Positions 2,250 to 34,032 of a stretch of DNA of 64,000 bases are shown here, piece by piece. A program made the translations under genes and the position numbers. The number at the start of each line of letters is the position of its first letter. The stretch's first letter is position 1. A model generated the notes under the pieces. It did no database searches. It saw only the letters and a list, made by a program, of their open reading frames with translations, and was not told the origin of the DNA. Location of the stretch: contig CP032507.1 of assembly GCA_008375315.1 (NCBI GenBank), positions 992,001 to 1,056,000 of the forward strand. Direction: 5' to 3'. The DNA comes from Ectothiorhodospiraceae bacterium BW-2. GTDB taxonomy: Bacteria; Pseudomonadota; Gammaproteobacteria; Thiohalomonadales; Thiohalomonadaceae.

Positions 2250-4058
2250 TCAGCACTCACTCAACCACACCAGCCGACTAAAGCCGAGTAGCACCACTGC
2301 ATGGCGTTGTAGTTGCCACGCTTTTTGGGGTTGGTCGTGCTGGAGTTGTTGCCAGTAGGCTTCTCCCTGCTGCTTCGCGCCTTCGAGCGCGGCTTTGACC
2401 AGCGGTAACTCGGCTAACTCCTCCCGGCTCATCGTTTGCAGCTCGCGGTCGCTCAGTTTGAGCTGTTTGAGCGGGATGAATTTAAGCTCAAACAGGTGGT
2501 CGAGGAGCGGGCTCTGGCGGCGGTCGGGGCGGACTTCGAACAGAATGTCGATATATTGCTTGCCGGTTGCCGCTTCCGATTGGGTGTTGTAGAAGAAGGT
2601 GTTGTGTAGCAGGGTCATGAAAATTAGTTTCGGGCTTAACTCATTGGCCCAGCGCAGGTCGCGATTGGCGAGGCTTTGGAGCATATTCTGTTCGATAAAG
2701 GCTGCTAGCGGTGCCATTTCGCCACTTAGGTAGAACGCTTCCGCCACCGCTTCGCGGGTGTTGACTAACTCATAGCTGGGGAGTAGCTCCTGCTGCAGCC
2801 GCTCTAAGTAGAGCTGGCGTATCACTTGGTTGGGGATTTTTAGGTAGGTCTTACCCAAAGCGTCGTTTCCGTCAACGGTTAATACGCCAAACCAGTAGAG
2901 CAGCGACAGCAGGTAGCCCTCATCCGGTACTTCGCGCGCTAACAGCTTTTCGATGCCAAAGCCGGTCTGGAGCCACATTGTCACTGCGCGGTCGCTGGCG
3001 GTGAGTTGTTCAATCACTTCGCTGCCGTGCGGCAGGCTGGCGATGTAGGCGATGCGGTTTTTGTCCATCGCTAGGTTATCATCCAGCATCTGTTTGGGGT
3101 ATTCGCAGCTGTGTTGCCACTGTTTCCAGAAGTAGAGGCAGAGGGTCGGGTTGTAGAGTCGGGTGTCACTCGCTTCGCTAAAGCAGTAGCCGTTGTAGTA
3201 GTGGCGCATCACTTCCATCGCTTCCATCGCCGCCCCCGGCGGTAGCTGGCACAGCTGCGCAATCTGCCGGTTCATCGCCACCACTTCATCGCGCTCAAAG
3301 CCGCACAGTCGATTAAATTCGGCAAAATGGCTGATGTTCTCCACCACATTGTAGCCGCTGGTGATGTCGCTCATGACCAGTGGCGAGACGCCGGTGAGAA
3401 AGACCCGTTCTAGTCCACTCCCCTCTGCGGAGGCTTTGACCACCTTAAAGACGGTTTTAATAATCCCTTCACCCCGAGTCAGGGCATCGTAGCGTGCTTT
3501 ACCCTGGGCGCGGCTGGTTAAGACTTCGTTGGCAAAATTGTCGTACTCATCAACCAGCAGATAGAGTGGATGACCAGCTTCGGCGGCGACATTGAGCAGG
3601 TTTTTCAGCGATATCAGACTGTTTTTCGGATGTAGCTTTACCTTATGCGGCAGAAGCTGGCGGTAGCGGATGGAGAAGGTATCAATCTCACTGTTAATAT
3701 GGTCATGCAGCCGTTCGCTGATTTGTTCCACATCGCCACTGGCATCAACCATAGAGAAGTTCCACTTTAGAATCAGGTAGCGGTTGCGGTTCGGGGTGGG
3801 ATTCTGGCCGATAGTCAAAGCGCCGAACAGGGTCTCAAACTGCTCTGTCCGGCCGAGGTCGTAGTAGTTCTCCAACATCGATAGCAGGCAGCTCTTGCCA
3901 AAACGGCGCGGGCGCAGGAACAGTAGCTGTCGCCCTGCCTCTTCGATGGCTGGAATGAGGTCGGTGCGGTCGGCGTAGTAGTACCCTTCACTAATCAGGG
4001 CGTTAAAGTCGCTTAAGCCATAGGGGAGTTTAATCGGTATAGGTTGCATCTGTTTCAT
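2250..4058 (-). CDS. AAA-ATPase-like / PD-(D/E)XK nuclease-family protein (DUF1703 type)
   Basis: Complete 602-residue protein. N-terminal AAA-ATPase_like domain (PF09820): LPYGLSDFNALISEGYYYADRT leads into RPRRFGKS (~residue 50), with LYLLVDEYDNFANEVL as the Walker B-like strand. C-terminal PDDEXK_9 domain (PF08011, formerly DUF1703): the D-x(n)-ELK-type core is visible as ILFEVRPDRR followed by HLFELKFIP (~residues 515-545). Such proteins are predicted ATPase-nucleases of unknown role, common as paralogous families. It sits between DGR units: the template repeat ends ~215 bp upstream of its start and the broken metacaspase gene starts 91 bp downstream of its stop, the same spacing as the truncated copy at 8099. 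It therefore seems to be part of the duplicated unit. Confidence 0.88.
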   Translation of the reverse strand: MKQMQPIPIKLPYGLSDFNALISEGYYYADRTDLIPAIEEAGRQLLFLRPRRFGKSCLLSMLENYYDLGRTEQFETLFGALTIGQNPTPNRNRYLILKWNFSMVDASGDVEQISERLHDHINSEIDTFSIRYRQLLPHKVKLHPKNSLISLKNLLNVAAEAGHPLYLLVDEYDNFANEVLTSRAQGKARYDALTRGEGIIKTVFKVVKASAEGSGLERVFLTGVSPLVMSDITSGYNVVENISHFAEFNRLCGFERDEVVAMNRQIAQLCQLPPGAAMEAMEVMRHYYNGYCFSEASDTRLYNPTLCLYFWKQWQHSCEYPKQMLDDNLAMDKNRIAYIASLPHGSEVIEQLTASDRAVTMWLQTGFGIEKLLAREVPDEGYLLSLLYWFGVLTVDGNDALGKTYLKIPNQVIRQLYLERLQQELLPSYELVNTREAVAEAFYLSGEMAPLAAFIEQNMLQSLANRDLRWANELSPKLIFMTLLHNTFFYNTQSEAATGKQYIDILFEVRPDRRQSPLLDHLFELKFIPLKQLKLSDRELQTMSREELAELPLVKAALEGAKQQGEAYWQQLQHDQPQKAWQLQRHAVVLLGFSRLVWLSEC

Positions 4059-4078: not shown

Positions 4079-4122
4079 GCTGGAAGAGAAAAAGGGGACG
4101 CAGGGCGTTCGCCGAAGCTACC
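4079..4122 (-). repeat. Breakpoint repeat R1, copy 2
   Basis: Same 44-bp sequence as at 1087-1130, lying ~150 bp beyond the template repeat and ~20 bp before the nuclease-type gene start. The sequence between the template repeat and R1 (4123-4272) has no recognisable gene. Confidence 0.7.
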
Positions 4123-4272
4123 GACCCTGCGACCTGTCATCCTGACGCTGCTATTGGCTGTCCCTTCCTTGCAACAGGCAGGAAGTTGATTCATGGACAC
4201 CTTGATACCACGCTGACTGAAGCCGTAACCGCAGCCACTCTGGGTAAGCAGGTAATATTCCCACGAGGCGGA

Positions 4273-4396
4273 CTGGAGAATCAGACGGAAGCCGTTGTTG
4301 TTCCTGCGGTTGCCGGTGTTGTTCCTGTTGCGGTTGGCCGAACGGAGGTTGTTCGGTTTGTTGTTCCAGGAACCACCGCGCAGAACGCGCTGGCCA
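4273..4396 (-). other. DGR template repeat (TR)
   Basis: This 124-bp segment aligns without gaps to the variable repeat at 5918-6041. Of 17 mismatches, 16 are at adenines of the TR (minus-strand sense) and one is a G-to-C. The TR is rich in AAC codons; read in frame it would encode SWNNKPNNLRSANRN, the classic asparagine-rich DGR template whose adenines mutate to any base. It begins 10 bp after the reverse transcriptase stop codon, so it lies distal to the RT gene, rather than between avd and RT as in the Bordetella phage element. It can be transcribed with avd-RT. Confidence 0.95.
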
Positions 4397-4405
4397 TCTG
4401 TTCGA

Positions 4406-5425
4406 TCAACTCCCTCGGCTAAAGACAATACCCCCTAATAGTTTGCGGCGCAACCCCTCAGTGTCGCCGTGGCGGGCATGACCAATCCAACTTTGCACCG
4501 CCGGACGCATTTGCGTCAGCTCAAGCTGTCCGGCTGCAAATGCGCGAGCGCGTTGACGGTGCTGGCGGGCAAAACGGTGGCCGTTGTCGTTGCGCAGTTG
4601 TCGTTTTGTGGGCCAGATACGGTAACCAAACAGGTCGATGCCGTCGGTGACTTTGGAGAGTGTGGGTTGGGAGTGGAGTTGTAGTCGCTCCTGTTGCAGG
4701 GTGTCGCTGATTACTTGATACCAGTGCCAGAGCTGGTGTTTGCTATCAGCGAGCAAAACCAGATCATCCACATACCTGAGATAGGCGCGACAGTGTAGCT
4801 GCTGTTTGATAAAGTGATCGAGTCTATTGAGATAGAGATTGGCAAAAAACTGGCTGGTCAGGTTGCCTATCGGGATACCGCAATCGGAATCTGAACGGGC
4901 ATCTTCAGGACTATGGTCGATGATGGTATCGAGCAGGTGCAGAGTGTGCGGCTCTTTTAGATAACGGCGCAGTCTCTGTTTGAGTGTGGGGCGATGAATT
5001 GAGGGGAAGTAGCGTTGAATATCGAGCTGTAGTACATAGGGGTAGCGTTGTGACCAGTGCTGATAGCGATCCACTGCTGCATGCACCCCTTTACCTTTGC
5101 GACAGGCGTAGCTATCGTGAATAAAGCGTCTGTCCAGTTCCGGCTCAATGATGCGCATCAGGGCGTGGTGAACCACCCGGTCTTTAAAGGGGGCGGCGGC
5201 TATTTGGCGTGGTTTGCGTTCGTAGAGGGTAAACAGGCGGTAGTTACCCGGCTGGTAGTTAAAGCTCTGTAGCTCCCACTGCAAACGGTGTAGCTGCTGC
5301 TCTAGTTGCAGGGTAAAACGGGCTACCTCCTCCCGGTTGCTTTTACCCCTTCGTGCCAGTCGGTAAGCTGCATAGAGGTTACCAAAGTCGGTTATCGCCT
5401 CCCATGTCTGACCAAGGCGCTTCAT
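4406..5425 (-). CDS. DGR reverse transcriptase
   Basis: 339 residues, the normal size for a DGR reverse transcriptase. Motifs in order: the polymerase A motif YVLQLDIQRYFPSI (Asp135), IPIGNLTSQ at ~185-192 and the catalytic YVDD at 218-221. The SQ ending of the GxxxSQ motif replaces the QG of retroviral and group II intron enzymes and is diagnostic for DGR RTs. The enzyme makes mutagenised cDNA from TR RNA, which replaces the variable repeat of the target gene. Its ATG overlaps the avd stop by 4 bp (ATGA), indicating translational coupling. All catalytic residues are present, so the element may be active. Confidence 0.96.
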   Translation of the reverse strand: MKRLGQTWEAITDFGNLYAAYRLARRGKSNREEVARFTLQLEQQLHRLQWELQSFNYQPGNYRLFTLYERKPRQIAAAPFKDRVVHHALMRIIEPELDRRFIHDSYACRKGKGVHAAVDRYQHWSQRYPYVLQLDIQRYFPSIHRPTLKQRLRRYLKEPHTLHLLDTIIDHSPEDARSDSDCGIPIGNLTSQFFANLYLNRLDHFIKQQLHCRAYLRYVDDLVLLADSKHQLWHWYQVISDTLQQERLQLHSQPTLSKVTDGIDLFGYRIWPTKRQLRNDNGHRFARQHRQRARAFAAGQLELTQMRPAVQSWIGHARHGDTEGLRRKLLGGIVFSRGS

Positions 5426-5766
5426 GTTTGCTGCTGTTTAAGCCAGCCACCTATTTGGCGACCCGGTTCATTAATCAGCTTAATGCCGTGCTCGTAGCGC
5501 TTTATACCGATGTATTGTAGCCGGTAACTGAGCCGCCACAGATGGCGCAGCAGCTCCAGTTTGCGATTAGCACGGATTAACAGGTCGCGCTTTTGTGGGC
5601 TGTAGGCGGCTTCAATCAGTAGCTCAAGTACCTCCAGCAGCAGATTCTCAATGCGCTGTGCCAGTGTATGGCGACGGGTGCGGGGAAAGTTATCCAACAG
5701 CGGTATCATCCACTCCATCAGCTGATGCCACCCATCAACGGCTTTAGGGGTTGAGCTTTGGGCCAT
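5422..5766 (-). CDS. avd: Avd, DGR accessory variability determinant
   Basis: 114 residues, predicted all-helical and basic (RTRRHTLAQRIENLLLEVLELLIEA, ...RANRKLELLRHLWRLSYRLQ), in the four-helix-bundle family shared by Avd and the S23 rRNA intervening-sequence proteins. In known DGRs Avd binds the RT and the template RNA and is needed for mutagenic homing. The position between target gene and RT, with a 4-bp overlap with RT, fits. Fragments of two further avd genes are in the window, at 1417-1512 and 9608-9834; the latter is nearly identical over its length. Confidence 0.9.
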   Translation of the reverse strand: MAQSSTPKAVDGWHQLMEWMIPLLDNFPRTRRHTLAQRIENLLLEVLELLIEAAYSPQKRDLLIRANRKLELLRHLWRLSYRLQYIGIKRYEHGIKLINEPGRQIGGWLKQQQT

Positions 5767-5798
5767 GTAATCAACCTAAACCTGTGGATAACTCTGTC

Positions 5799-5829
5799 AA
5801 AAAAATCGCGCGAGCCCCGCACGCGGGGC
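5799..5829 (-). terminator. Hairpin with T-run between target gene and avd
   Basis: On the minus strand GCCCCGC-GT-GCGGGGC (5829-5814) is followed after eight bases by seven Ts (5805-5799). This resembles an intrinsic terminator about 85 bp after the target gene stop and would separate high target expression from low avd-RT expression. DGRs also often carry a DNA hairpin just past the variable repeat that stimulates homing; this one is ~90 bp beyond it, rather far for that role. Both readings remain open. Confidence 0.5.
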
Positions 5830-5911
5830 ACTCTGTAACGGCTCCATCGGCACTCATCACCTAATCCGTCCCACTGAGTTTAAAGGGTAAAAGGGTAAGG
5901 GGGACATAGGG

Positions 5912-8011
5912 TTAGTCCTGGAGAATCAGACGGAAGCCGAGGCTGGTCCCGGGGAGGCCGGTGAAGTTCCAGTTGCGGTCGGCCGAACGGAGGTTGATCG
6001 GTCCGCTGCTCCAGGAACCACCGCGCAGAACGCGCTGGCCACACTCACCGCTCTCCCAAGCACTGCCATCAGCCGGAGCGCCATGGTAGCTGTTGTTCCA
6101 ACAATCCTGCACCCACTCCCAGACATTGCCGCTCATGTCATATAACCCAAAGGCGTTGGGTTGAAACGAGCCAACAGGTAGTGTTATCTTGCGATAGGTG
6201 CCGGTCTTAGCGCCGCAATCTTTATAGTCATAATTACCATTATAGTTTGCTTGCTTTGTAGTGATACAATTTCCTGTCCAGAACGGAGTGGTGGTGCCGC
6301 CTCGAGCCGCATACTCCCACTCAGCCTCACTCGGTAAACGGTAACGCTTGCTCGTCTTTTGGTTCAGTTTTTTGATGTATTGCTGAATATCATCCCAACT
6401 GACCTGTTCTACCGGGCAGTTGCTGCCGCAGTTACTAAAACGGCTCGGATTGCCCCCCATCACTGCCTGCCATTGGCTTTGGGTGATTTCGTATTTGCCT
6501 ATCTTAAAACTATTAACACAGACGCGGTGTACCGGTTTTTCGTCACTATCACCACTGTTGCTGCCCATCTGATAGCAGCCACCGGGCACTGGTTCCATCT
6601 CCGGTTCGTAGCTGCGGCGCTGCTGGCTGCTGGTTGTCGTCGGGCGTGAGCTGCTTTGTGAGGGGGCGCTCGTTTGTTGTACCGACTGGGCTATCTCACT
6701 GAGCGTGACATGATGCGTCGTCGCTCTACCACCATGCTCGACCCACTCAAGATGCTTTTCATAGCCGTCCGCCGTGACTTCAATCCGGTAGCGGCCATCT
6801 TTTAGTTCTATGCCATCATAGTATTTCGGGACGATGTTAAGAATGCGAACACGGGCATCGACCGGGGTGGTGCTGACCGTGAACGGGTGATTCGCCGGCT
6901 CGCGGGTGAGTGAGTCCAAAATAAAGTTGACCACTCTCGGCTGATTGCTCGCGCTTAAAAATATCGTCTCGCTTTCGCTTTGATAACCCGCTTTTTCTGC
7001 ACTTAGCTCGTAGCTCTTATTAGCCGGCAAACCGGGAATCGTCTGTGGCGCTGCGCCGACTTTGGCACCATTAAGACGAATAATCGCACCACCGGGGGTG
7101 CTGTCTATCGCTAGTATCCCCGTTAGCGCTGTCGGTTGCGGGGCGGGAATAATTTGGCTGCTGCCACCGGCGACTAAAATAATATCCCCGCGCGAAAGGT
7201 GGTAGTCTTTAATCGTCCCCGACTGCGGCGTCTGGTCGCTGTGGTTACCAACGGTCTGTTTCAGGTGTAGCCCCAGCTCTTCGCCAGTAATGTAACCATC
7301 GCGGTTTAAGTCCCCTTTGCGGTAGCGTATCGCATCGACAAACGCTGGCGTAAAGACGCTGTGCGCCGGTACTTCCTCTCCCGCACTGCCGGCGGTGATA
7401 AAGCGTCTTACCGGTTCGGCCATCAGTTTGCTAATCAGTGGCGGTGGCTCATCCGCCCCTTTGGCCGCTAAAATGGTGCCGGAAAAACAGCTATCAAACA
7501 GAAACAGTACATGGTTGGTGGTGATGTTGCGGTTCCACGCCAAGATGTCGTTAAAGTTAAGTGCTTTGCGCCGAAACCCTGCTTCATCACGGGAGGGGAG
7601 CGGTGCATCGGTCGGGACTAAAAAGCCTTGCCGCCCGTTATCAAGGCTGTAACCGTGACCAGAGTAATAGACCAGCAGACGGTTATTACGGGCGTAGCCA
7701 TACTGTTCCAGAAACTGTTTTATCTCCGCTTCTAGTTCGCGGCTGTCAGGGTTATCGAGACGGTGAATTTGGTAGCTCTGCTCTTCTAAAACCGCCACAA
7801 CATCATCCAGCTCTGTGGGGATGCTGTCTAAATCGTCCCACCCCGCCGTGTAGTCACTGACACCAATAATGAGCGCGTGGCTCTGTTGGTATTGCAGCAG
7901 CGGTTTGCCATCGGGTAGGGCGATGTCCACCGGCAGGCTGCCCCGGTTCTGCGCTTGTAGCCACGGCGATAGTAGTAGAGATAGTAACAGGGGCAGTAGT
8001 CGATAGTTCAT
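5912..8011 (-). CDS. DGR target: exported metacaspase-PEGA-FGE/C-type-lectin protein
   Basis: 699 residues. Residues 1-20 are a Sec signal peptide (LLPLLLSLLLSPWLQA). Residues ~40-250 are a peptidase C14 (caspase/metacaspase) domain with catalytic His119 (YYSGHGYS) and Cys175 (LFDSCFSGT). Residues ~220-275 contain an EF-hand-like stretch (GDLNRDGYITGEEL). Two PEGA-type beta domains follow (~293-360, ~370-440), then a Ser/Thr/Gln-rich linker and a formylglycine-generating-enzyme/SUMF1-type domain (~470-699) with GGCYQMGS, YRLPSEAEWEYAARGG and FGLYDMSGNVWEW. This last domain has the C-type-lectin fold used by DGR targets, and its final ~41 residues are the variable repeat. It is predicted to be an exported protease whose ligand-binding face is diversified. 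What it binds and cleaves is unknown. Confidence 0.95.
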   Translation of the reverse strand: MNYRLLPLLLSLLLSPWLQAQNRGSLPVDIALPDGKPLLQYQQSHALIIGVSDYTAGWDDLDSIPTELDDVVAVLEEQSYQIHRLDNPDSRELEAEIKQFLEQYGYARNNRLLVYYSGHGYSLDNGRQGFLVPTDAPLPSRDEAGFRRKALNFNDILAWNRNITTNHVLFLFDSCFSGTILAAKGADEPPPLISKLMAEPVRRFITAGSAGEEVPAHSVFTPAFVDAIRYRKGDLNRDGYITGEELGLHLKQTVGNHSDQTPQSGTIKDYHLSRGDIILVAGGSSQIIPAPQPTALTGILAIDSTPGGAIIRLNGAKVGAAPQTIPGLPANKSYELSAEKAGYQSESETIFLSASNQPRVVNFILDSLTREPANHPFTVSTTPVDARVRILNIVPKYYDGIELKDGRYRIEVTADGYEKHLEWVEHGGRATTHHVTLSEIAQSVQQTSAPSQSSSRPTTTSSQQRRSYEPEMEPVPGGCYQMGSNSGDSDEKPVHRVCVNSFKIGKYEITQSQWQAVMGGNPSRFSNCGSNCPVEQVSWDDIQQYIKKLNQKTSKRYRLPSEAEWEYAARGGTTTPFWTGNCITTKQANYNGNYDYKDCGAKTGTYRKITLPVGSFQPNAFGLYDMSGNVWEWVQDCWNNSYHGAPADGSAWESGECGQRVLRGGSWSSGPINLRSADRNWNFTGLPGTSLGFRLILQD
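5918..6041 (-). other. DGR variable repeat (VR)
   Basis: The last ~41 codons of the metacaspase target, ending 3 bp before its stop. The 124 bp align gap-free to the TR at 4273-4396. Compared with the TR-encoded sequence, 13 residues differ; most are Asn codons that have become Ser, Ile, Asp, Phe, Leu or Thr. The invariant 3' part (GFRLILQ codons) is identical in both and is where an initiation-of-mutagenic-homing site would lie. Sixteen of about 33 template adenines are changed, so the repeat has been rewritten extensively. Confidence 0.95.
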
Positions 8012-8098
8012 GCTCGTAAGCCTATGGTGGTTAAAGGGGGGTAAGGCATACTACCGAAACGGGTCGCTGGGCTCAAGTCAAATAGTAGGGCGATTCGG

Positions 8099-8678
8099 TC
8101 AGCACTCACCCAACCACACCAGCCGGCTAAAGCCGAGTAGCACCACTGCATGGCGTTGTAGTTGCCACGCTTTTTGGGGTTGGTCGTGCTGGAGTTGTTG
8201 CCAGTAGGCTTCTCCCTGCTGCTTCGCACCTTCGAGCGCGGCTTTGACCAGCGGTAACTCGGCTAACTCCTCCCGGCTCATCGCTTGCAGCTCGCGGTCG
8301 CTCAGTTTGAGCTGTTTGAGCGGGATGAATTTAAGCTCAAACAGGTGGTCGAGGAGCGGACTCTGGCGGCGGTCGGGGCGGACTTCGTAGAGCAGCGACA
8401 GCAGGTAGCCCTTATCCGGTACTTCGCGTGCTAACAGCTTTTCGATACCGAAGCCGGTCTGGAGCCACATTGTCACTGCGCGGTCGCTGGCGGTGAGTTG
8501 TTCAATCACTTCGCTGCCGTGCGGCAGGCTGGCGATGTAGGCGATGCGGTTTTTGTCCATCGCTAAGTTGTCGTCCAGCATCTGTTTGGGGTATGCGCAG
8601 CTGTGTTGCCACTGTTTCCAGAAGTAGAGGCAGAGGGTCGGGTTGTGTAGAGCTGGGTGTCACTCGCTTCGCTAAAGC
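8099..8678 (-). pseudogene. AAA-ATPase/PD-(D/E)XK protein, internally deleted and 5'-truncated copy
   Basis: DNA homologous to 2250-3180 of the intact paralogue. An in-frame deletion of 119 codons joins LLSLLY directly to EVRPDRRQSP. The 5' part stops at ~8678 and the region just inside that end carries small indels, so no original start remains; the readable frame (MLDDNLAMDK...) begins at 8581. The ATPase motifs are absent, while the ELK of the nuclease core remains. It ends 88 bp upstream of the metacaspase gene, the same arrangement as at 2159-2250. Confidence 0.85.
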
Positions 8679-9561: not shown

Positions 9562-9605
9562 GCTGAAGGGAGAAAGGGGTACGCAGGGCGTTCGCCGAAG
9601 CTACC
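9562..9605 (-). repeat. Breakpoint repeat R1, copy 3
   Basis: Third copy of the 44-bp R1 sequence, sharing GTAGCTTCGGCGAACGCC with the copies at 1087 and 4079 and slightly diverged in the C/T-rich half. It abuts the truncated avd gene at 9608. Here it is followed by the JAB-domain gene pair rather than by a nuclease-type gene. Confidence 0.65.
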
Positions 9606-9607
9606 CA

Positions 9608-9834
9608 CCTTGGCGCAATAGCTCCAGTTTGCGATTAGCACGGATTAACAGGTCGCGCTTTTGTGGGCTGTAGGCGGCTTCAATCAGTAGTTCAAGTACC
9701 TCCAGCAGCAGATTCTCAATGCGCTGTGCCAGCGTATGGCGACGGGTGCGGGGAAAGTTATCCAACAGCGGTATCATCCACTCCATCAGCTGATGCCACC
9801 CATCAACGGCTTTAGGGGTTGAGCTTTGGGCCAT
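9608..9834 (-). pseudogene. Avd, N-terminal fragment
   Basis: About 74 codons nearly identical to the intact Avd (MAQSSTPKAVDGWHQL...RANRKLELLR), then cut at R1 with a few foreign codons and a stop at 9601. The 38 bp upstream (to ~9874) also match the leader of the intact avd. Homology ends inside the A-run that in the intact copy belongs to the hairpin/T-run structure. This is the remnant of a third DGR unit whose RT and target have been lost. Confidence 0.85.
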
Positions 9835-9876: not shown

Positions 9877-10312
9877 CCTCGACAAGTCCGGAACACTTGC
9901 TGAATATCTGAATGTGATGCCCCCAAGGAATCTGCGCGATGCGTTGCGCAAGCTCGGCCTCCACGCCGACCCAAGGTTCGGAGTTCAATTTGGCAACAGC
10001 CTGTTGCCAAATTGCAGGGTCACAATAGAAGCGGAAGAAAGCTCGACAGTAGCGCAGATTTTTAGCTGAAAAACCGCCCACATCGGGAAACGAGGCTTTC
10101 AGGTCTCTGCTAAAAGCATCAATAAAACCTGTACCCCACCGCGCAGTTGACTCCCGCTCGCTGATCCGCGCCCCGAGCTCGTAATACAACGTAATCAGCT
10201 CGCTGTTCGCCGACAGCGCGATTTTCATTCGCGCTGCATGAATCCGGCTTTTGACGGATGCCAACCAATCGCGATAGGCCGCCCCTTGGGTCAATTTCAT
10301 GTCAGCAGGCAT
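9877..10312 (-). pseudogene. DUF1016 (YhcG-type) N-terminal domain, 3'-truncated
   Basis: About 145 codons of a DUF1016 N-terminal domain: YRDWLASVKSRIHAAR, LYYELGARISERE, WGTGFIDAFSRDLKASFP, FSAKNLRYCRAFFRFY and IPWGHHIQIF. Family members are ~340-380 residues with a C-terminal PD-(D/E)XK nuclease domain; here the sequence is cut after IQIFSKCS and joined to avd leader DNA, so the nuclease part is missing. The ATG overlaps the stop of the preceding PglX-tail frame (TGATG). DUF1016 proteins are commonly found near restriction and BREX loci. Confidence 0.8.
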
Positions 10313-10452
10313 CAATCCTCCTTCGCATCCAGCCCGACGATCTTCTTCAAGGCCGCGCCGAGTTTGGGATAGCTGACCTTCACGCCATCATCGAGGTCGA
10401 TCAGCACCTGCACTGTAGCCAGCAGATTATCGGACTGTTGATCGCTCACCAT
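10312..10452 (-). pseudogene. PglX C-terminal tail D, as a 46-codon open frame
   Basis: Minus-strand frame ending ...LIDLDDGVKVSYPKLGAALKKIVGLDAKED, the typical C-terminus of the BREX methyltransferase PglX. It starts with an ATG that overlaps the vapC stop and ends in a TGA that overlaps the DUF1016 start, so it is coupled on both sides. Its sequence differs from tails A-C, so it is not a simple recent copy. Either a remnant of a pglX gene whose 5' part was replaced by vapBC, or a retained mini-protein. Confidence 0.75.
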
Positions 10453-10832
10453 ATCCGTGTGACTCCATAGCTATCAAAAGCACCGTCACAGCTCACCAGC
10501 GGAATCGCTTCCGCGAGCGATTGGGCAATCAGCAGACGATCGAATGGATCACGGTGATGAAAAGGCAAGTCAATCAGTGCAGTGGTATGTTTTGGCAGGA
10601 TCGGCAAGATATGGAAATCGTTGTGGGCCAGTTCTCGTTCCATGAATAACGCATAGGATTCTGGCAACGCATATTTACCCAGACTGATCTTGATGGCGAT
10701 CTCCCAATAGATTGCCGGACTGATGTAAACCATCGTCCGCGCATCGCTGATGATCGACTGCGCGGTTGCAGAGAGTTTCGGATCATCCAGCAAGAACCAC
10801 AGAAAGGCGTGGGTATCCAACAACACTCTCAC
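10446..10832 (-). CDS. vapC: VapC-type PIN-domain toxin
   Basis: 128 residues with the PIN pattern: N-terminal LLDTHAFLWFL (first Asp), YWEIAIKISLGK (Glu) and DPFDRLLIAQSL with the later VSCDGAFDSYG acidic residues. PIN toxins cleave RNA, commonly tRNA or rRNA. The ATG overlaps the stop of the antitoxin gene by 4 bp, the usual vapBC layout. It sits between two PglX tails (C and D), as a cargo unit. All acidic residues appear present, so it may be functional. Confidence 0.9.
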   Translation of the reverse strand: MRVLLDTHAFLWFLLDDPKLSATAQSIISDARTMVYISPAIYWEIAIKISLGKYALPESYALFMERELAHNDFHILPILPKHTTALIDLPFHHRDPFDRLLIAQSLAEAIPLVSCDGAFDSYGVTRIW

Positions 10833-11062
10833 GGCATATAGCCCTGGAAATCGTCTAGATGTGCCTCATCCTCTACCAGCACCTGCAACTTTCCCTTGGC
10901 GCTGCCTGGCGTACGCCGCCGAATGGGTGGTTGTTCGATGGTTTCGCTGTTTTGCCGCAAGGCATAGCGATTTTCAATGAAATGGACAAAATCAAGCACC
11001 TCACGCGCCAAATCGTCCGGCAGTGTTTTCACTTCAGAATAGATCTCTTCTGCTATCGCCAT
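10829..11062 (-). CDS. DUF2281/VapB-type antitoxin
   Basis: 77 residues (MAIAEEIYSEVKTLPDDLAREVLDFVHFIE...), matching the DUF2281 antitoxin pattern of an N-terminal helical region followed by a disordered, basic stretch (PPIRRRTPGSAKGK) and an acidic C-terminus. It precedes and overlaps vapC. The antitoxin should bind and neutralise VapC and repress its own promoter. Confidence 0.85.
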   Translation of the reverse strand: MAIAEEIYSEVKTLPDDLAREVLDFVHFIENRYALRQNSETIEQPPIRRRTPGSAKGKLQVLVEDEAHLDDFQGYMP

Positions 11063-11092: not shown

Positions 11093-11169
11093 TCAGTCAT
11101 CGTTACCCTCAAGACCGACAATCTTCTTCAACGCAGCACCCAATTTCGGATAGTTGACCTTCACGCCGT
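11093..11169 (-). pseudogene. PglX C-terminal tail C
   Basis: Minus-strand codons DGVKVNYPKLGAALKKIVGLEGNDD followed by TGA. This is the PglX C-terminus again, diverged in DNA from tails A, B and D. On its upstream side it is joined directly to a truncated IS66-like transposase, and on its downstream side vapB starts 31 bp later. It has no start codon of its own. Confidence 0.75.
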
Positions 11170-11610
11170 CAGCAGGCGGTAGGCCTCGCCCTGTGGGTCG
11201 CGGTAAAGTAGGCACCACAGCTATTGCAGCGCAGCCGCTCGAAAATATGTTCGACCGCACTTAAAGGGGACTCGCCCTGAATCCGTACCCGTATCACCGG
11301 CTGATAGAGGTAGAGCCGGCCATGACCGCATTCTGGGCAGAGCTGTCCCGCCTTCAGCTCATCATGGTTGTGATGGCACTGCAACCGAATCACCCGCTCT
11401 GCTTTTTGAGTCGATGGCTTTTTCTTCCCATTTGTGTATCGTGACATCTTTCAGAGACAATGAGATCTGTCGCTCTGTGACCATTAACAAACCCCCCAAC
11501 AGTAGCTGCCTATCGGCTTTAGAGAGGGCCAAATCTTCTGCAATGGCTCTCTCAACACGCTCAATCAGCTCGTCAATCTCGGTTTTACTCAATGTTTTAA
11601 ACTCTGTCAT
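11169..11610 (-). pseudogene. IS66-like transposase N-terminal part, frameshifted and truncated
   Basis: Two overlapping frames make up one broken gene. The first (11610-11362) has the N-terminal helical region of IS66 TnpC (TEIDELIERVERAIAEDLALS...). The second (11447-11169) has the zinc-ribbon section (QLCPECGHGRLY ... ERLRCNSCGAYFTA). A frameshift lies near 11430 and the gene is cut at ~11169 by PglX tail C, so the DDE catalytic domain is missing. Confidence 0.75.
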
Positions 11611-12234: not shown

Positions 12235-13080
12235 TCATCGCTGGAGCTCCTCCAATTCCACTAACTCCCCAGCCGCCCGAACCCCCAACTGCATCGACCA
12301 AAGTAGTGACTGTTCCAAAAACTGCGCTAACGGTTGCAGATCGCCACTATCGGCCATCGCAATCGCATCGAGATAGCTTCGTCGCCGGCTGGTCTGAATA
12401 ATGAGTGGTAATAGTTCCAACCGTAGTAAAACATAGTTCAACAGCAGTCGTACCACCCGACCATTGCCATCATCAAATGGATGGATAGCAATAAAGCGGT
12501 GGTGTATCTCTGCTAATAGTTGCATTAACTCTTGTTGCGGTTGCTCAATCTGTTCTGTCAGCCAGTGGCAAAACTCCGCCATCTTTGCCGGAGTCTCCTC
12601 CGAGGTAGCAAAGTGAAACAGCTCACCCGTGGCGGTAATGACATGATTCGGAGCCGTTTTATACTCCCCCGGCTCAATCCAGCGGCGAGTCGGGTTGCCA
12701 TCGACCGTTTCAGCAATGCGCCAAAAACCCTCTTTTAAGACGATGCGATTCAAATCACGAATATCTCCTTCACCGATCATGCGCTCCTCTTTAGCTAAAC
12801 TACGTAGATACTCAATCGCCACATCGTGACCACGCATCTCCTCATATTCGCGTAACAGATGTTCGCCTCGGGTACGGCCATGAATCAGTAACAACAGTGT
12901 TTCACCATAGGTTAAGGTGTTGCCTTCAATGTGGTTAGAGTTGTAGTTCCACTCCAGCCGTAACCGCTGCCAAAGTCGTTGCTCAAATTCAGCTTTAAGT
13001 GGTTGTGCTGCCAACCATTGATCGCAAACATCCGCCAGTTCAGCCGTCAATAAGGGACGAAATTTGTGGTAGTCACTCAT
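12235..13080 (-). CDS. Fic/DOC family AMP-transferase-type protein
   Basis: 281 residues. The Fic active-site motif HPFDDGNGRVVR (~residue 200) is complete, and the N-terminal inhibitory motif S-x-x-x-E-G-N is seen as SNHIEGN (Ser48-Asn54), as in class II Fic proteins, which autoinhibit in cis. Such enzymes transfer AMP or other phosphate-containing groups to protein hydroxyls; the target is unknown. The ATG overlaps the stop of an upstream frame (...QQMAEKLEAIQR) of which only ~20 codons remain before the IS607 end, so a partner gene upstream has been lost. Confidence 0.92.
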   Translation of the reverse strand: MSDYHKFRPLLTAELADVCDQWLAAQPLKAEFEQRLWQRLRLEWNYNSNHIEGNTLTYGETLLLLIHGRTRGEHLLREYEEMRGHDVAIEYLRSLAKEERMIGEGDIRDLNRIVLKEGFWRIAETVDGNPTRRWIEPGEYKTAPNHVITATGELFHFATSEETPAKMAEFCHWLTEQIEQPQQELMQLLAEIHHRFIAIHPFDDGNGRVVRLLLNYVLLRLELLPLIIQTSRRRSYLDAIAMADSGDLQPLAQFLEQSLLWSMQLGVRAAGELVELEELQR

Positions 13081-13136: not shown

Positions 13137-14543
13137 CTAAAAACCTAAGCAAAGTTGCTCATGGCAGTTTTTCGGTAATTCGCTCTCCGTTGATAACACC
13201 CGTACGGGCGAGCAACTGGAGTCCTGGTTGAGCAGTCCCAACCGGAGGCGCTCAGTCCGCGCTTGCAAGATCGTCTTCACCTGTCGGTACGGCATGAACC
13301 GATCGATGTCAAGATCGGACAACCGTGCCAGCACGTTTCGCGCAGCGTTCTGATCTGCCTGCAACACAACCCCGTCGAAACAGTAAAACCGATCCCCCTG
13401 GCGTTTGCCGAGTAGGCATCCGTTGCGGGAATCAATTTGCGATGTGTAGGCAGGATTGACCAGAACGACCGCAGAACCTCTGCGGCTTGAAACACTATCA
13501 AGTGCTTCGGCAATGACGCCTTTCGTCCAGCTTGCCAGCCGACGATTGACGTTCTTGCCGAAGGACTTGCCCGACATCGGGGCGGTGAGCTCTTCCGCCG
13601 CAATCACGGCGGCTTTATCAACAACCTTATGAACCGACTGAAACACCACATCACGGATGCTTGCATGGGTTTTGTCCATCTGCCGGTTTAGCTTTTTGCG
13701 CCCAAGGTTAAAGCGACGAATGTGCTCGCGTTTATGCGGGTTACGGGTCGTGTTGGCGAGCGCTCGCAGTTTTGATCGGCGCTGATATTTGGCTTTTAGC
13801 TTATCGGATTGTTCGGTCAGTACTTGACCGAGCTCCTGGCCGTGGTGATCGCCGTCTGAATCCACAAGCACTTCGGAGTAGCCTTTATCAATGCCGAGGG
13901 TGCGCTTGCCGCAATCCTGTTTGGTTTCGACATTAACGGTGGTGTGAACCTCAATACGGTCATCGTCTTTGATAATGACGCGCAGAGTGCCAGTTGGCGT
14001 GATCGTGGTATTGAGCAAAATGGCGATACGCTGACCTTTAACAAGGCCGGGGATCTTGATCCAGACGCACCCACCCAGGAGGAAGGTAGTGTAATTATCT
14101 GAACGGACAATAATCTGGTTATGGGTATGGTTATGGCCATGATGCCAGTGCTTACGCATGAGCCGGCGCAGATAAGAATCGCCCGTCCATTCGTTGCGCT
14201 TGAGGGCAGTGAACAGGCGTTTTTGCTCGGCTTCGTCCCGGATGTGACGAAAGACAGATTGGCGAACCTTAACCTTGGCCGCTTCCATGCAGGCGGTGAT
14301 GTTGCCCTTCGCATCGCGTAGGGTCTCTTTCCAAGCGTTGGCGGAAACCGGAAAGGCGCGACCTTCCTTCAGCCAGCCATCGCGAATCTTGCGATCCGAG
14401 AGACCCACGCCACCGACCGACCCAAACCTCTGCCAGACCTCGGTACGCACTTGGCCAAGCCGACGCGCCTGCTCGCGCAATGCGGCGACTTTGCCCTTGT
14501 TCGGGCGTTTTGCGTTCAAAACTCGCGTGACCTTCATTCGCAC
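13137..14543 (-). CDS. tnpB: TnpB, RNA-guided nuclease-family protein of IS607
   Basis: 468 residues. RuvC-like catalytic residues are visible in order: Asp in RTLGIDKGY, Glu in AAEELTAP and Asp in ADQNAARN. The zinc-finger region is degenerate: NGCLLGKRQGDRFYCFDG keeps two cysteines where four are usual. TnpB proteins of IS200/605 and IS607 elements are guided by a reRNA/omegaRNA from the 3' end of the gene to cut donor sites and help retain the element. Here the element seems to end right after the stop codon, so the guide RNA scaffold would have to lie inside the last part of the coding sequence. It overlaps tnpA by 10 bp. Confidence 0.9.
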   Translation of the reverse strand: MRMKVTRVLNAKRPNKGKVAALREQARRLGQVRTEVWQRFGSVGGVGLSDRKIRDGWLKEGRAFPVSANAWKETLRDAKGNITACMEAAKVKVRQSVFRHIRDEAEQKRLFTALKRNEWTGDSYLRRLMRKHWHHGHNHTHNQIIVRSDNYTTFLLGGCVWIKIPGLVKGQRIAILLNTTITPTGTLRVIIKDDDRIEVHTTVNVETKQDCGKRTLGIDKGYSEVLVDSDGDHHGQELGQVLTEQSDKLKAKYQRRSKLRALANTTRNPHKREHIRRFNLGRKKLNRQMDKTHASIRDVVFQSVHKVVDKAAVIAAEELTAPMSGKSFGKNVNRRLASWTKGVIAEALDSVSSRRGSAVVLVNPAYTSQIDSRNGCLLGKRQGDRFYCFDGVVLQADQNAARNVLARLSDLDIDRFMPYRQVKTILQARTERLRLGLLNQDSSCSPVRVLSTESELPKNCHEQLCLGF

Positions 14544-15163
14544 ACATCCTTTGGTAACTGAATGGGACTATCGGGAAAATCCTCCTTGATCTGCTGCTTG
14601 TACTTGCGCATCCGATACAGTCGGCAACTGAAGGTATGCACAATCGCCAGTAAATCCTCAACCATCTCTTGCTCAGGGGAGAGAGACTCCTGGTTCACAA
14701 CGACTATCTCACAGCCATTTTCTGCTGCGATATGCGCCAACAAATCGAAGCCAAAGCGCATCAACCGATCCTTGTGGGCAATCAGCAGTAGGCGCACTTC
14801 CCCACGATGAATCCGATCGACCAGAGCGAGAAAGCGCTTGCGCTTGAAGTTCATCCCGCCGCCGATTTCTTGCACCCACTCATCGACCGCAATCCCTGCG
14901 CCCAGACAGTAGGTTTCCATCGCTTTGACCTGGGAGGCAAGATCGTCTTTTTGTCCCGCACTGGAGACTCGGCAATACACCACCACATCTCGCCTCTTAG
15001 GCGCCCCGCCCAGCATCAGGCGAACATCGGACTCATCGAAATACCGATGCCCCGATGGCAGGCGCTTGGACTGCAACTTCCCCTCTCTTTCCCAACGCCG
15101 CACGGTTTGCACTGACCGCCCAATGCGCTTAGCAAACTCACCTATGCTGTATCTACTGCTCAT
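14534..15163 (-). CDS. tnpA: IS607-type serine recombinase (TnpA)
   Basis: 209 residues: N-terminal MerR-like helix-turn-helix (YSIGEFAKRIGRSVQTVRRWE) followed by a small serine resolvase domain with the nucleophile in VVYCRVSSAGQKDDL and the conserved KDRLMRFG segment. This order, DNA-binding domain before catalytic domain, is specific to IS607. The protein moves the element by site-specific recombination with low target specificity. It looks intact. Confidence 0.94.
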   Translation of the reverse strand: MSSRYSIGEFAKRIGRSVQTVRRWEREGKLQSKRLPSGHRYFDESDVRLMLGGAPKRRDVVVYCRVSSAGQKDDLASQVKAMETYCLGAGIAVDEWVQEIGGGMNFKRKRFLALVDRIHRGEVRLLLIAHKDRLMRFGFDLLAHIAAENGCEIVVVNQESLSPEQEMVEDLLAIVHTFSCRLYRMRKYKQQIKEDFPDSPIQLPKDVCE

Positions 15164-17243: not shown

Positions 17244-17244
17244 A

Positions 17245-17694
17245 TCACTCCTCCGTCGCTTCCAGGCCGACGATCTTCTTCAGGGCCGCGCCGAGTTTGG
17301 GGTAGTTGACCTTCACGCCATCATCAAGGTCGATCTTCACCTGCTCGGTGGCCAGAGGGTAGAGCACCTCGCGTTCGTACGCCTCCATCTCGGTGATCAT
17401 CCTGGTGATCTTTAGGGTCTCCTTCAGGGCCTTGGTCTTCTCGCTCTGGCTGCTGCTGGCGCTGATGCTGACCGCCTCCAGATGGTTTTTGTGGGAGGTT
17501 AGCTTGGTGCGGAACTCGCGCAGGTAGTCGTTGCCATGCCCCTTGATCGCCTCTTCTAGCCTCTTTATAGCCACGGCACATTCACGCCGAGCCGCGCTGT
17601 TTTCAGCAAGCACCCGTTTCAGCTTGGCGGAGACCTGATCCAGCAGGCTGCGGCGGGCGAACTGAGCGAATTTTTTTAGTTTTGCTGTTTCCAT
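17245..17694 (-). pseudogene. pglX: BREX methyltransferase PglX, internally deleted (tail A)
   Basis: 149 codons remain of a gene normally ~1,200 codons long. The start METAKLKKFAQFARRSLLDQ is the conserved PglX N-terminus; the end LATEQVKIDLDDGVKVNYPK...GLEATEE is the conserved C-terminus; the methyltransferase core between them is gone, but the frame is open. The start lies 3 bp after the nuclease-like gene stop and its end is 2 bp before the next ATPase gene, so the operon is still tightly packed. It cannot methylate DNA. Confidence 0.85.
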
Positions 17695-29502: not shown

Positions 29503-32500
29503 ATGACACCCCCACTCCCAACAACAACCGAACGCACCGAGTCGATACAGAGGCCACTCATGGCGGTCGGTATTGGGGCATCGGCTGGGGGCATTGAGGC
29601 GCTGACTGAGCTGATTACCTCATTAAAACCGCAGCGATCGAGCTTCTATATCGTCGCCCAGCACCTCTCACCCGACTATCGCAGTATGCTGGTGGCGATT
29701 TTGTCCAAAAATAGCGCCTTAAAGGTTAAAGAGGGGCTATCGGGTACCCTCCCCGAGGCCGATACTATCTACATTACCCCCGAAAATCGCAATATCGTCG
29801 TCCAAGAGGGTAGGCTACAGTTACAGGAGCCGGAGATAGGCGAATACCCTAAACCGTCGGTCAACCTACTGTTAAAATCACTCGCCGAGGAGTACGGCGC
29901 CATGAGCTGCGGTATTATCCTCTCCGGTACCGGCAGTGATGGTAGCCACGGTATTCGCCAAATTAAAGAGCGCGGCGGCATCACCTTTGTCCAGCTACCG
30001 CAGAGTGCCCAATACAATGGCATGCCGCTATCGGCGATACAGAGCAGCGATATCGACTATATCCTCCCCCCATCCGCTATCGCTACCGAACTGCATCAAC
30101 TCAATCAGATTAACTCGCTCATAGAGCTAGCCCCGGAGAGTGTCGCCTCTCCCCCCGCTTTTCGTCCACTGCTACAGCGGCTGCGGCTCCACTACCCGAT
30201 CGATTTTTATACGCTTGATCCCCCCCAGTTATGGCAGATATTGCAACAGAGCTCAGCGGAAACCACCCCGAATAACTTAGAGCAGACTGGACGGCAACTG
30301 CTGCTACAGACCAGCCACTTCTTTACCCACCCTAGCCACTGCTCTACCCTGCAACAACAGCTACTGTCGCTATGGCAGAGCCGTACTACCGAAGAGCAGG
30401 AGTTTCGCATTTGGGTTCCGGGCTCCGCGACTGGGATAGAGGCCTACTCTATTGCTATTTTATGGCAAGAGCTTACCTTTGAGCATACCCTGCCAACGCT
30501 ACAAATATTTGCCACCCACAGCAACGAAAATGCGCTCCAGTTAGCCCGCAAGGGGTGCTTTCCAACCACAGCGCTGCAACAGCTACAGCCTAAGTTACAG
30601 CAGCGCTACTTTCTCCCTAGCGGCGGTAACTACGAAATCGGCAAAGATATTCGTAAAATGGTTATCTTTGCTCGCCACGAGCTGATGCAAGATCCCCCCT
30701 TTTTACGCATCGATCTCATCGCCTGCCACCGCCTGTTACAGCCGCTCCACCCCGATCTGCGCCAGCAGCTACTCAAGCTATTCCACTACGCTCTTAAACC
30801 CGATGGGCTGCTATCTGTCGATCAGGAGAATATGGCGCTAATTCCGGTCGATCTCTTCCAACAGGCGACCCCAAAGGAGCCGATATTTCGCCGGCTGCAT
30901 ACCCCTCCACTAGAGACGAATCGGCCTAGATTTCAAAACAGCCCCGTCTCGCCCCCGCTACGAACCTCCCCCTCCGGACGGGCGCGTACCGAAGAGCTCT
31001 ATCAACGACAGCTACAAAAACTCTATGTTCCGCCAGGGATGATCGTCAATACTATGCACGATATTCTCTATATCAGCGGTGAGATCAGCAGCTACTGTAC
31101 CCTCAGTGGCGGTATGTTGCAGTACGATCTAGCTCATTTGCTCAATCCAGAGCTCAAGAAAGAGACGCAGCTACTACTCTATCAAGCTAAACGCAACCAA
31201 GCCCCTAGTAGCGGTCGCGCCCACTACACTCGCCATCCGTTTCGGATTAAGGTCACCCCCCTCCCCGGTAAACGAGATCAGGAGCTCTACTTTGTCGGCT
31301 TCGAACCGATAGAGGAGGAGAGCCCGCCAGTGCTATCGGCCGATGAGAGTGAAGGTGATGGCCAGAGTAACCAGAGTCAGAACGAGATCAACTTTGAACA
31401 GCTACAGAGTGAGTTACAGACCACCCGAGAGCAGCTCTATAGCACTATTGAGGAGTTAGAGACCTCCAATGAGGAGATGCAGGCGCTCAATGAGGAGGTG
31501 CAGGCGGCGAACGAAGAGCTACAGGCGACCAATGAGGAGCTAGAGACCGCCAATGAAGAGCTGCAATCGACCAATGAGGAGCTTCTGACCGTCAATGATG
31601 AGCTACAGAACAAAAGCGATCAGTTCGCCAGCCTCAACCACCAATTAGAGAATATTCAACAGAGTCTGACGCTGCCCCTGATTGTGTTTGATGCTCAAAC
31701 ACGGCTAATCCGCTTCAATCGTGCCGCTAACTACCACTTCGAGCTGCATAATGGCTACCACCTGCACCACCTGCATGAAATTCCAGCCCCCCTACCGGTC
31801 GGTGAGCTCGAAAAGTTGCTCCAACAGGCGCTAACACACGGCAATACCACCCGCACCACCTTAACCCACAATCGCCACCACTATCTGATTCAGGTCTCAC
31901 TCTACTTTGACGATGAGCAGCAGCTACTCGGCTCGATCTTCACCTTTGTCGATGAGACCGAGCTTATTGAGATTCGTAACCATCTGCAGCATAGCGAGCA
32001 GCAGCTACAGGCGATGATGAATAACTCCCCGGCAATGATTGCTCTAAAAGATACGGCTGGGCGCTACCAGTTCGTCAATCGCGCCTTCTGCCGTTTCTTT
32101 AATCTTGTTCCTGAACAGATGCTACAAAAGAGCGATCAACAGCTATTTAACCCCGCACTATCCGATCTATTTCGCTCTCGTGAGCTAGAGGTACAGCAGA
32201 AAGGTCGGTTGATAGAGGTCGAAGATCAGATCTCCTGCGGCGGTAAGCACTATATTTTACAGTGCCACCGCTACCCGCTATTCGATGACGATGGCATCAT
32301 CAGTGGTCTCTGCATTCAGGCTAACGATCTGACCGAAAAGCGTCACGCCGAAGAGCATCTGCGTCTAGTCGCTAAGGTATTCGAACGCAGTACCGAAAGT
32401 ATTGTCGTCACTGATGCGGATAACCGTATCTTAACTGTCAATGATAACTTTACCACTGTCACCGGCTACAGCCGCGAAGAGGCGATCGGTCAAACCACGG

Positions 32501-34017
32501 CTCTGCTCAAATCGGGACGCCATGATCACGCCTTTTATGAGTCGATGTATCTAGCGCTCACTCACCACGAACAGTGGCAGGGCGAAATCTGGAACCGGCG
32601 CAAAAATGGCGAACTCTACCTAGAGTGGCTCACGATTAATGCGGTCAAAAATAGCGATAATGAGGTGGTCAACTACATCGGCACCTTTACCGATATTACT
32701 GCCATCAAAGAGGGGCAGAACCGGTTAGAGTACCTCGCCTCCCACGATGAACTAACCGGACTGCCGAATCGCACCCTCCTGCTCGATCGCCTGAACCACG
32801 CCCTTCAAATCGCGGCGAGAGAGGGGCGTCGCTGTGCGCTCTGCTTTATCGATTTAGATCACTTTAAGAGTGTTAATGATAACTTTGGCCACGCCGTCGG
32901 TGATCAGATGTTAATCCAAACCGCAGCTCGGCTGAGTAGCCACCTGCGCAGCAGCGACACTCTCGCCCGCGTTGGCGGTGATGAGTTTATTCTGCTCTTA
33001 GAGGATAGCGATATTAGCGATGCCCACCTAATCGCCACCAAAATGTTACGGTCGATGCAGCAGCCGCTGGTGATTGAGGGGCATGAGCTGTTTCAGTCAC
33101 TCAGTATCGGTATCAGCCTCTATCCTGATGACGCCAAAGAGGCTGCAGTCCTGATGGAGTATGCCGACACCGCCATGTATCGAGTCAAAAAAGAGGGGCG
33201 CAATAACTACGCTCTCTTCTCTAGTGAGTTCAATCAAGTGCAGTTTAATCTAAAAAAGATGGAGACAGAGCTCCACCGTGCCTTAAAAGAGGATCAGTTC
33301 ACTCTGCTCTATCAGCCGCAGATAGCGCTAGCGACTAACCAGACCGTCGGCCTAGAGGCACTCATTCGCTGGCAACGCCCCGATAACGAGATAGTCTCAC
33401 CGGCGCTATTTATCGGCATTGCCGAAGATATCGGTCTGATTGAGGAGATCGATATCTGGGTCGTTAACCGAGTCTGTCAGCAGATCAACCAGTGGCAGCA
33501 TGAGGGACATGCCGTTCCCCCTGTCTCGGTTAATATCTCTGCCCGCCACCTACGGCAGGAGAATTTGAGCGAGGAGCTAGTCCAGATTTTGCGTCGCTAC
33601 CGTATCCCCCCCTCCCAACTCACGCTGGAGATTACCGAAGGCACCTTGGTTGAGCACGCCGAAAAGGCTCGTAATACCTTTAGTCAACTACGACAGCAGC
33701 AGTTTCAGTTAGCGGTCGATGACTTTGGGATGGGCTACTCGTCACTCATCTATCTGAAAAAGTTTCCGTTTAACGAGTTGAAAATTGATCGCAGTTTTAT
33801 TAACGGTATTGGTCTTTTAGGTAGTGACGATGATGTCATCTGCAGTGCCATGATCGCTATGGCCCATGCGTTAGGAATGGAGGTAGTGGCCGAAGGGGTC
33901 GAAACCGAAATCCAGCTGCAACGACTACGACAGTTAGACTGTGAGCGGGTACAGGGCTATCTGTTTGCCAAACCGCTCCCACCCGCAGAGACTACCTCTT
34001 GGTTTCGTCCTAGCTAA
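29503..34017 (+). CDS. CheB-CheR-PAS-GGDEF-EAL giant sensor protein
   Basis: 1,504 residues. CheB methylesterase domain ~20-205 with Ser in GASAGG, His in [10 protein letters not shown] and Asp in [10 protein letters not shown] CheR-like domain ~220-460 that is degenerate: [12 protein letters not shown] instead of PGCATGEESYT, and DLIACHRLL in place of DLISCRNVLIYF. A long heptad coiled coil ~625-715 ([18 protein letters not shown]), three PAS-like domains ~730-1075, GGDEF ~1085-1245 with an intact VGGDEF, and EAL ~1260-1500 with LEALIRW. It could make and break c-di-GMP in response to PAS-bound signals, and demethylate receptors. Adjacent to a second CheB-CheR protein 15 bp downstream. Confidence 0.93.
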
Positions 34018-34032
34018 CCCACCGAGCCCCCT

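Follow-up and report, generated by a model that had tools for sequence, protein, structure and literature searches.

An intact diversity-generating retroelement (DGR) lies in a 64,000-nucleotide (nt) stretch of the genome of Ectothiorhodospiraceae bacterium BW-2, referred to here as the window (C1:992001-1056000, where C1 is the single contig of the 4.07 Mb genome; positions without this prefix are numbered within the window). Its target gene with a variable repeat (VR), its accessory gene avd, its reverse transcriptase (RT) gene, and its template repeat (TR) are all in place, and we put the probability at about 93% that it is a DGR of canonical mechanism, in which a transcript of TR and tail directs replacement of the VR and which probably also has targets in trans. 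Under this mechanism, Avd and the error-prone RT would bind a transcript in which a folded tail of about 170 nt comes after the TR. Copying of the TR would insert random bases at its adenines, and the resulting cDNA would replace the VR at the end of the target gene, which would be marked by the conserved 3′ end of the VR and by a 3′ flank with a GC-rich hairpin. To what the first-pass annotation of the window had reported, our analysis adds three remote VRs, decayed copies of the cassette within the window, a second DGR, and a conserved RNA 3′ of the TR.

All parts of the cassette are on the minus strand. The target open reading frame (5912-8011, 699 amino acids [aa]) and avd (5422-5766, 114 aa) are open and full length, and the ATG of the intact RT gene (4406-5425, 339 aa) overlaps the avd stop codon. 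As the 124 bp TR (4273-4396), which contains 33 adenines, begins only 9 nt past the RT stop codon, one transcript could carry the whole cassette. The VR (VR1, 5918-6041, also 124 bp) lies just before the stop codon of the target gene and forms its last 41 codons but one. TR and VR1 align without gaps, and 16 of the 17 mismatches fall at TR adenines (hypergeometric P = 3.1e-10, given 33 A in 124 positions); the single exception is a G to C change at TR offset 89. The first-pass annotation had described a complete DGR at these positions, with the RT motifs IPIGNLTSQ and YVDD and with this same ratio of adenine differences, and our re-examination bore it out on each of these points. It had also taken the adenine bias as direct evidence of mutagenic homing, which holds for homing at some time but not for current activity, and it had singled out the location of the TR distal to the RT. 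The location is correct, but its noteworthiness is only partly justified: the arrangement, with the TR past the RT and both on the minus strand, is that of group 2 in the DiGReF survey (PMC3521204), and the TR is likewise downstream of the RT in eight of the related loci that we examined (L073, L075, L077, L078, L081, L085, L124, and L127).

The proteins were identified by several kinds of comparison. Avd scored 102 bits against the NCBIfam equivalog model NF033474 (DivGenRetAVD, cut-off 80) and matched Pfam bAvd (PF22296) with E = 4e-21. The RT is of the DGR type, with the YxDD and SQ motifs, and is 37% identical to brt of BPP-1. Its best matches in the Protein Data Bank were 8ub7 and its sister entries (E = 1e-47), which we take to be the Bordetella bRT complex, although the entry title reads only "reverse transcriptase". 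The locus further shows the adenine pattern between TR and VR, a VR at the 3′ end of a target gene with a C-type-lectin fold, and a structured spacer RNA directly 3′ of the TR, for which the evidence is covariation and matches to a covariance model (described below).

The target protein contains a caspase domain (Peptidase_C14, residues 45-189, E = 3e-13; 7445-7879, minus strand), a PEGA domain (298-356), and a C-terminal FGE-sulfatase domain (470-696, E = 5e-55), which has the C-type-lectin fold and carries the VR. The FGE part matches TvpA (2y3c, E = 4e-24), an established DGR target. Candidates for the catalytic His (in YYSGHGYS) and Cys (in FLFDSCFSG) of the caspase are both present in the translation, and the N terminus has what we judged by eye to be a hydrophobic leader. 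The targets are likely to be exported ligand sensors of the caspase/FGE type, with a randomized binding face. An AlphaFold model of the FGE domain was set aside, its pLDDT being under 50 across most of the VR, and FGE paralogs at 2,049 and 2,603 kb were excluded, as they appear to be lectin homologues for which the genome contains no TR. The FGE/caspase targets and the multiplicity of loci fit a cellular DGR of clade 5 of the DGR RT tree, a clade that is reportedly due to Roux 2021 and Dore 2024.

The first-pass annotation had proposed a search of the genome for other VRs matching this TR, and the search was positive. Three more VRs were found, at C1:987893-988016 (VR2, about 10 kb away), C1:858077-858200 (VR3, about 140 kb away), and C1:1993811-1993934 (VR4, about 1 Mb away). 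Differences from the TR fall at template adenines in 16/17, 11/12, 18/18, and 18/18 cases for VR1 to VR4, or 63 of 65 when the four are pooled (P = 9e-40). All 65 are at codon positions 1 and 2, AAA is the only TR codon that can mutate to a stop codon, and the TR could encode about 6e18 different proteins. The sequences around VR1, VR2, and VR3 are identical to the letter over 121-199 bp on the upstream side and 139-281 bp on the downstream side, while the VRs themselves differ from one another at 18-20 sites within 124 bp, 17-19 of which are template adenines. Identical flanks around divergent VRs indicate that targeted mutation took place after a recent duplication. The same TR and RT most likely serve the three dispersed target genes in trans as well.

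The pattern of flanks and VRs does not by itself prove action in trans, because the same picture would result if a cis target had been copied at different times. It is possible, if rather doubtful, that only VR1 is rewritten and that VR2 to VR4 are snapshots copied from the cis target or left behind by cassettes of their own that have since decayed. Joint duplication of target, flank, and cassette pieces is clearly visible in this genome, and the cassette that holds VR2 does have a decayed avd, RT, and TR. Near VR3 and VR4, however, there is no RT, TR, or tail of their class, yet both agree with the TR at every non-adenine site (their differences being 18/18 at adenines in each case) and keep the full 3′ flank; in addition, targets that bear this signature in Thiohalocapsa PB-PSB1 show natural variation (PMC10907252). 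A second alternative is that the DGR was formerly active and is now frozen, its components intact, homing stopped, and the VR differences old. The evidence comes from a single genome, and several cassette copies of the same cluster have decayed, but every component (RT, avd, TR, and target) remains open and at full length, and the differences of VR1 to VR3 within 260-400 bp of identical flank place diversification after a recent duplication. We regard this alternative as unlikely.

The four targets of this TR have in common a 130 bp segment 3′ of the VR (5788-5917 at VR1, minus strand), which comprises the last codon, the stop codon, and noncoding DNA. It is 98-100% identical at the four targets and is found nowhere else in the genome, and soon past it the dispersed targets abruptly lose their similarity to one another. 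Within it, 88 nt past the VR, lies a GC-rich inverted repeat (GCCCCGC-GT-GCGGGGC, 5814-5829) whose 7 bp stem is present at all four targets, without a GRNA loop. Efficient homing in BPP-1 depends on a GC-rich hairpin past the VR, and the hairpin together with the initiation of mutagenic homing (IMH) sequence was sufficient to direct the machinery to another gene (PMC3240598). By analogy, the inverted repeat is a candidate target-recognition hairpin or cruciform, and a hairpin flank common to all targets suggests how genes might be singled out for rewriting. The four targets of the second DGR (described below) share a different flank, with an 8 bp stem and a GGCA loop, which fits the GRNA rule, 79 nt past the VR. 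Because the flanks of both DGRs run into CGCGAT and a run of T, their hairpins may also act as terminators.

Directly 3′ of the TR is a structured, spacer (Sp)-like RNA tail (4099-4272, minus strand). The sequences that follow TRs in this genome and in its relatives align over about 170 nt, and their RNAalifold consensus has 28 pairs, 21 of them with compensatory double changes. It consists of an outer stem that begins beside the TR, an inner hairpin with a loop of the UUUACGGA type, and a 3′-terminal hairpin (CGCAGGGUCGGUAGCUUCGGCGAACGCCCUGCG, 4099-4131, minus strand) that has a GUA/GAA internal loop and is followed by a T-rich run. We take the internal loop to resemble the bulged-G (loop E) module. 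The boxes UCCAUGAG, AAAUAG, and GGAUGA and two further paired regions are kept in distant genomes. The covariation in the last 100 nt of the tail was reached by none of 500 shuffles. This terminal hairpin was present past the TR in 19 of 42 non-redundant DGRs, including cyanobacterial and phage DGRs, as compared with 0.39 (maximum 2) in shuffles.

A covariance model of the tail, R1, matched all eight nearest relatives of the RT (E ≤ 4e-5), four of which had not been used in building it, and its matches include four loci without a detected TR/VR pair. In the BW-2 genome it found five places, each beside a TR or a TR remnant; at the locus in the window it matched 4096-4197. The model gave no match to BPP-1, and a search of Rfam with the tail found no match. 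A search of viral contigs with the RT of the second DGR as single query found nothing. In another genome of the same family, in which no RT was found at the threshold used, the tail and a TR-like sequence lie at the edge of a short contig (L180, G004:C46:6258-6359).

The tail follows the TR whether the TR precedes the RT, as in L074, or lies 11-23 nt past it, as in L073, L075, and L077; TR and tail therefore behave as one unit, and they probably move as one. If the tail is the handle for RT and Avd and always accompanies the TR, the pair could be placed on either side of the RT and could serve many scattered targets. We give an even chance to the broader proposal that the TR and its covarying tail (outer stem, apical hairpin, and terminal hairpin with a loop-E-like GUA/GAA loop) constitute a portable RNA gene shared by cellular and phage DGRs, free to lie before or behind the RT and serving scattered targets that are marked only by the VR and the hairpin flank. 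The tail offers a testable reason for the free position of the TR relative to the RT, and its covariance model is a route to DGR templates that does not rely on TR/VR matches. A competing explanation is that the tail is mainly a transcription terminator with leftover homology rather than an RNA that RT and Avd would bind. It does end in a stable hairpin and a T-rich run. But the boxes and paired regions that are kept in distant genomes lie upstream of this hairpin, the internal loop of the hairpin is conserved although a terminator does not need it, and in L074, where the RT comes next after TR and tail, a terminator would cut the RT off. Furthermore, in BPP-1 the spacer in the corresponding position takes up a fold and recruits bRT-Avd (PMC12875486, citing Handa 2025). 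We consider the terminator explanation improbable.

Several points weigh against our interpretation of an intact DGR with a functional tail and targets in trans. The flank hairpin lies 88 nt from the VR and has a 2 nt loop (or a 4 nt loop, CGTG), as compared with a distance of 4-34 bp and a GRNA loop in phage DGRs (PMC3240598). The folding energy of the tail alone is no better than that of shuffles (z = -0.4), and the case for its structure therefore rests on covariation. The diversification of VR2 to VR4 could predate their copying or the decay of their own cassettes, and any present homing activity is presumed from the sequence of a single genome.

A second complete set of avd, RT, and TR is located at C1:867-868 kb, 128 kb away, and its RT is 59% identical to the first. 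Its TR matches four VRs of its own, with differences at adenines in 22/23, 22/22, 15/16, and 18/18 cases. Although the region is full of duplications, the notion that TR and VR are alike through a mere duplication, with their differences due to ordinary divergence or to sequencing error, is refuted by the counts (63/65 at adenines, P = 9e-40, within identical flanks) and by the same pattern in this second TR with its four VRs. The second DGR (C1:866-893 kb; L057 and L058) sits in an island of several caspase-domain genes.

Five incomplete DGR sets were found, at 987, 993, 1001, 248, and 896 kb. In the window, one decayed copy (all on the minus strand) consists of an N-terminal RT remnant (1038-1424), which at 1107-1130 joins an exact copy of the distal part of the Sp hairpin, and of the N-terminal caspase part of a target gene (1458-2159); 1498-2538 and 7350-8387 are 98.7% identical. 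The other (9582-9834, minus strand) is an N-terminal avd remnant (9601-9834) fused to the distal part of the Sp hairpin (9582-9605). Of these two separate deletions, the first cuts RT and the second avd, and in each the sequence resumes near GGTAGC in the 3′ hairpin of the tail (about 1107-1136 and 9582-9612). A mobile-element explanation of the hairpin was rejected, as its near-exact copies (up to 3 mismatches) are confined to this DGR cluster. Orphan TRs with an intact tail lie beside C-terminal RT fragments at C1:247920-248210 (L060) and C1:896439-896706 (L059); a search for VRs of the 248 kb orphan TR matched only other TRs.

A gene for an AAA-ATPase_like protein (2250-4058, minus strand, 602 aa) adjoins the cassette copies and has been duplicated with them; a truncated copy lies at 8099-8581, and the gene of about 600 aa is also repeated at L056 (1456-3261 and 7259-9067), with pieces that are 93-96% identical or more. 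Near the DGR cluster are a gene for a PIN-domain toxin-like protein with a small partner (10446-11062) and a Fic-domain gene (12235-13080). The window also holds an IS607-type pair (13137-15163) of a MerR-resolvase gene and a TnpB-like gene with a Cas12f1-like_TNB domain. Dispersed repeats of 63-112 bp (10311-10422, 11109-11171, and 17244-17355), 81-88% alike, resemble small mobile or palindromic elements. Farther along (29503-38247) are two adjacent signaling genes of 1400-1500 aa with partly repeated sequence, the first of which encodes CheB, CheR, several PAS, GGDEF, and EAL domains.

The BW-2 DGR belongs to a known kind, as both a TR after the RT and remote targets have been described before. 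With the BPP-1 DGR (mtd-avd-TR-brt) it shares Avd, an RT (37% identical), adenine-directed transfer from TR to VR, a TR right after a stop codon, a folded RNA 3′ of the TR, and a GC-rich hairpin past the VR. It differs in that the TR lies past the RT instead of between avd and RT, the target is a caspase/FGE protein instead of a tail fiber, the hairpin is 88 nt instead of 4 nt past the VR, and one TR has several VRs. FGE-type C-lectin targets are shared with Treponema denticola TvpA, which lacks the caspase and PEGA domains. Cyanobacterial DGRs (PMC7517822; PMC3521204) have the same avd-RT-TR order and dispersed C-lectin/FGE targets, remote targets being known among them (PMC7517822), and a related 3′ hairpin follows the TR in DGRs of Fischerella, Nostoc, Anabaena, and a Microcystis plasmid; their RTs are about 41-44% identical to that of BW-2, and their targets have other N-terminal domains. 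For the clade 5 DGRs of Thiohalocapsa PB-PSB1, remote targets, degenerate loci, and transposon-driven copying have been described, the targets have been proposed to be antigen sensors, and there are four complete classes as compared with two here (PMC10907252). PB-PSB1 is a different organism, the targets in BW-2 are probably exported caspase-PEGA-FGE proteins, and an RNA tail is not described for the PB-PSB1 DGRs in the parts of that paper that our analysis covered. What the BW-2 locus adds to these systems is the RNA tail, its most useful part, and a pair of four-target networks. In the first, a single template appears to diversify four proteins of the caspase/FGE type over 1 Mb, which makes it a compact natural example, and a second such network lies beside it.

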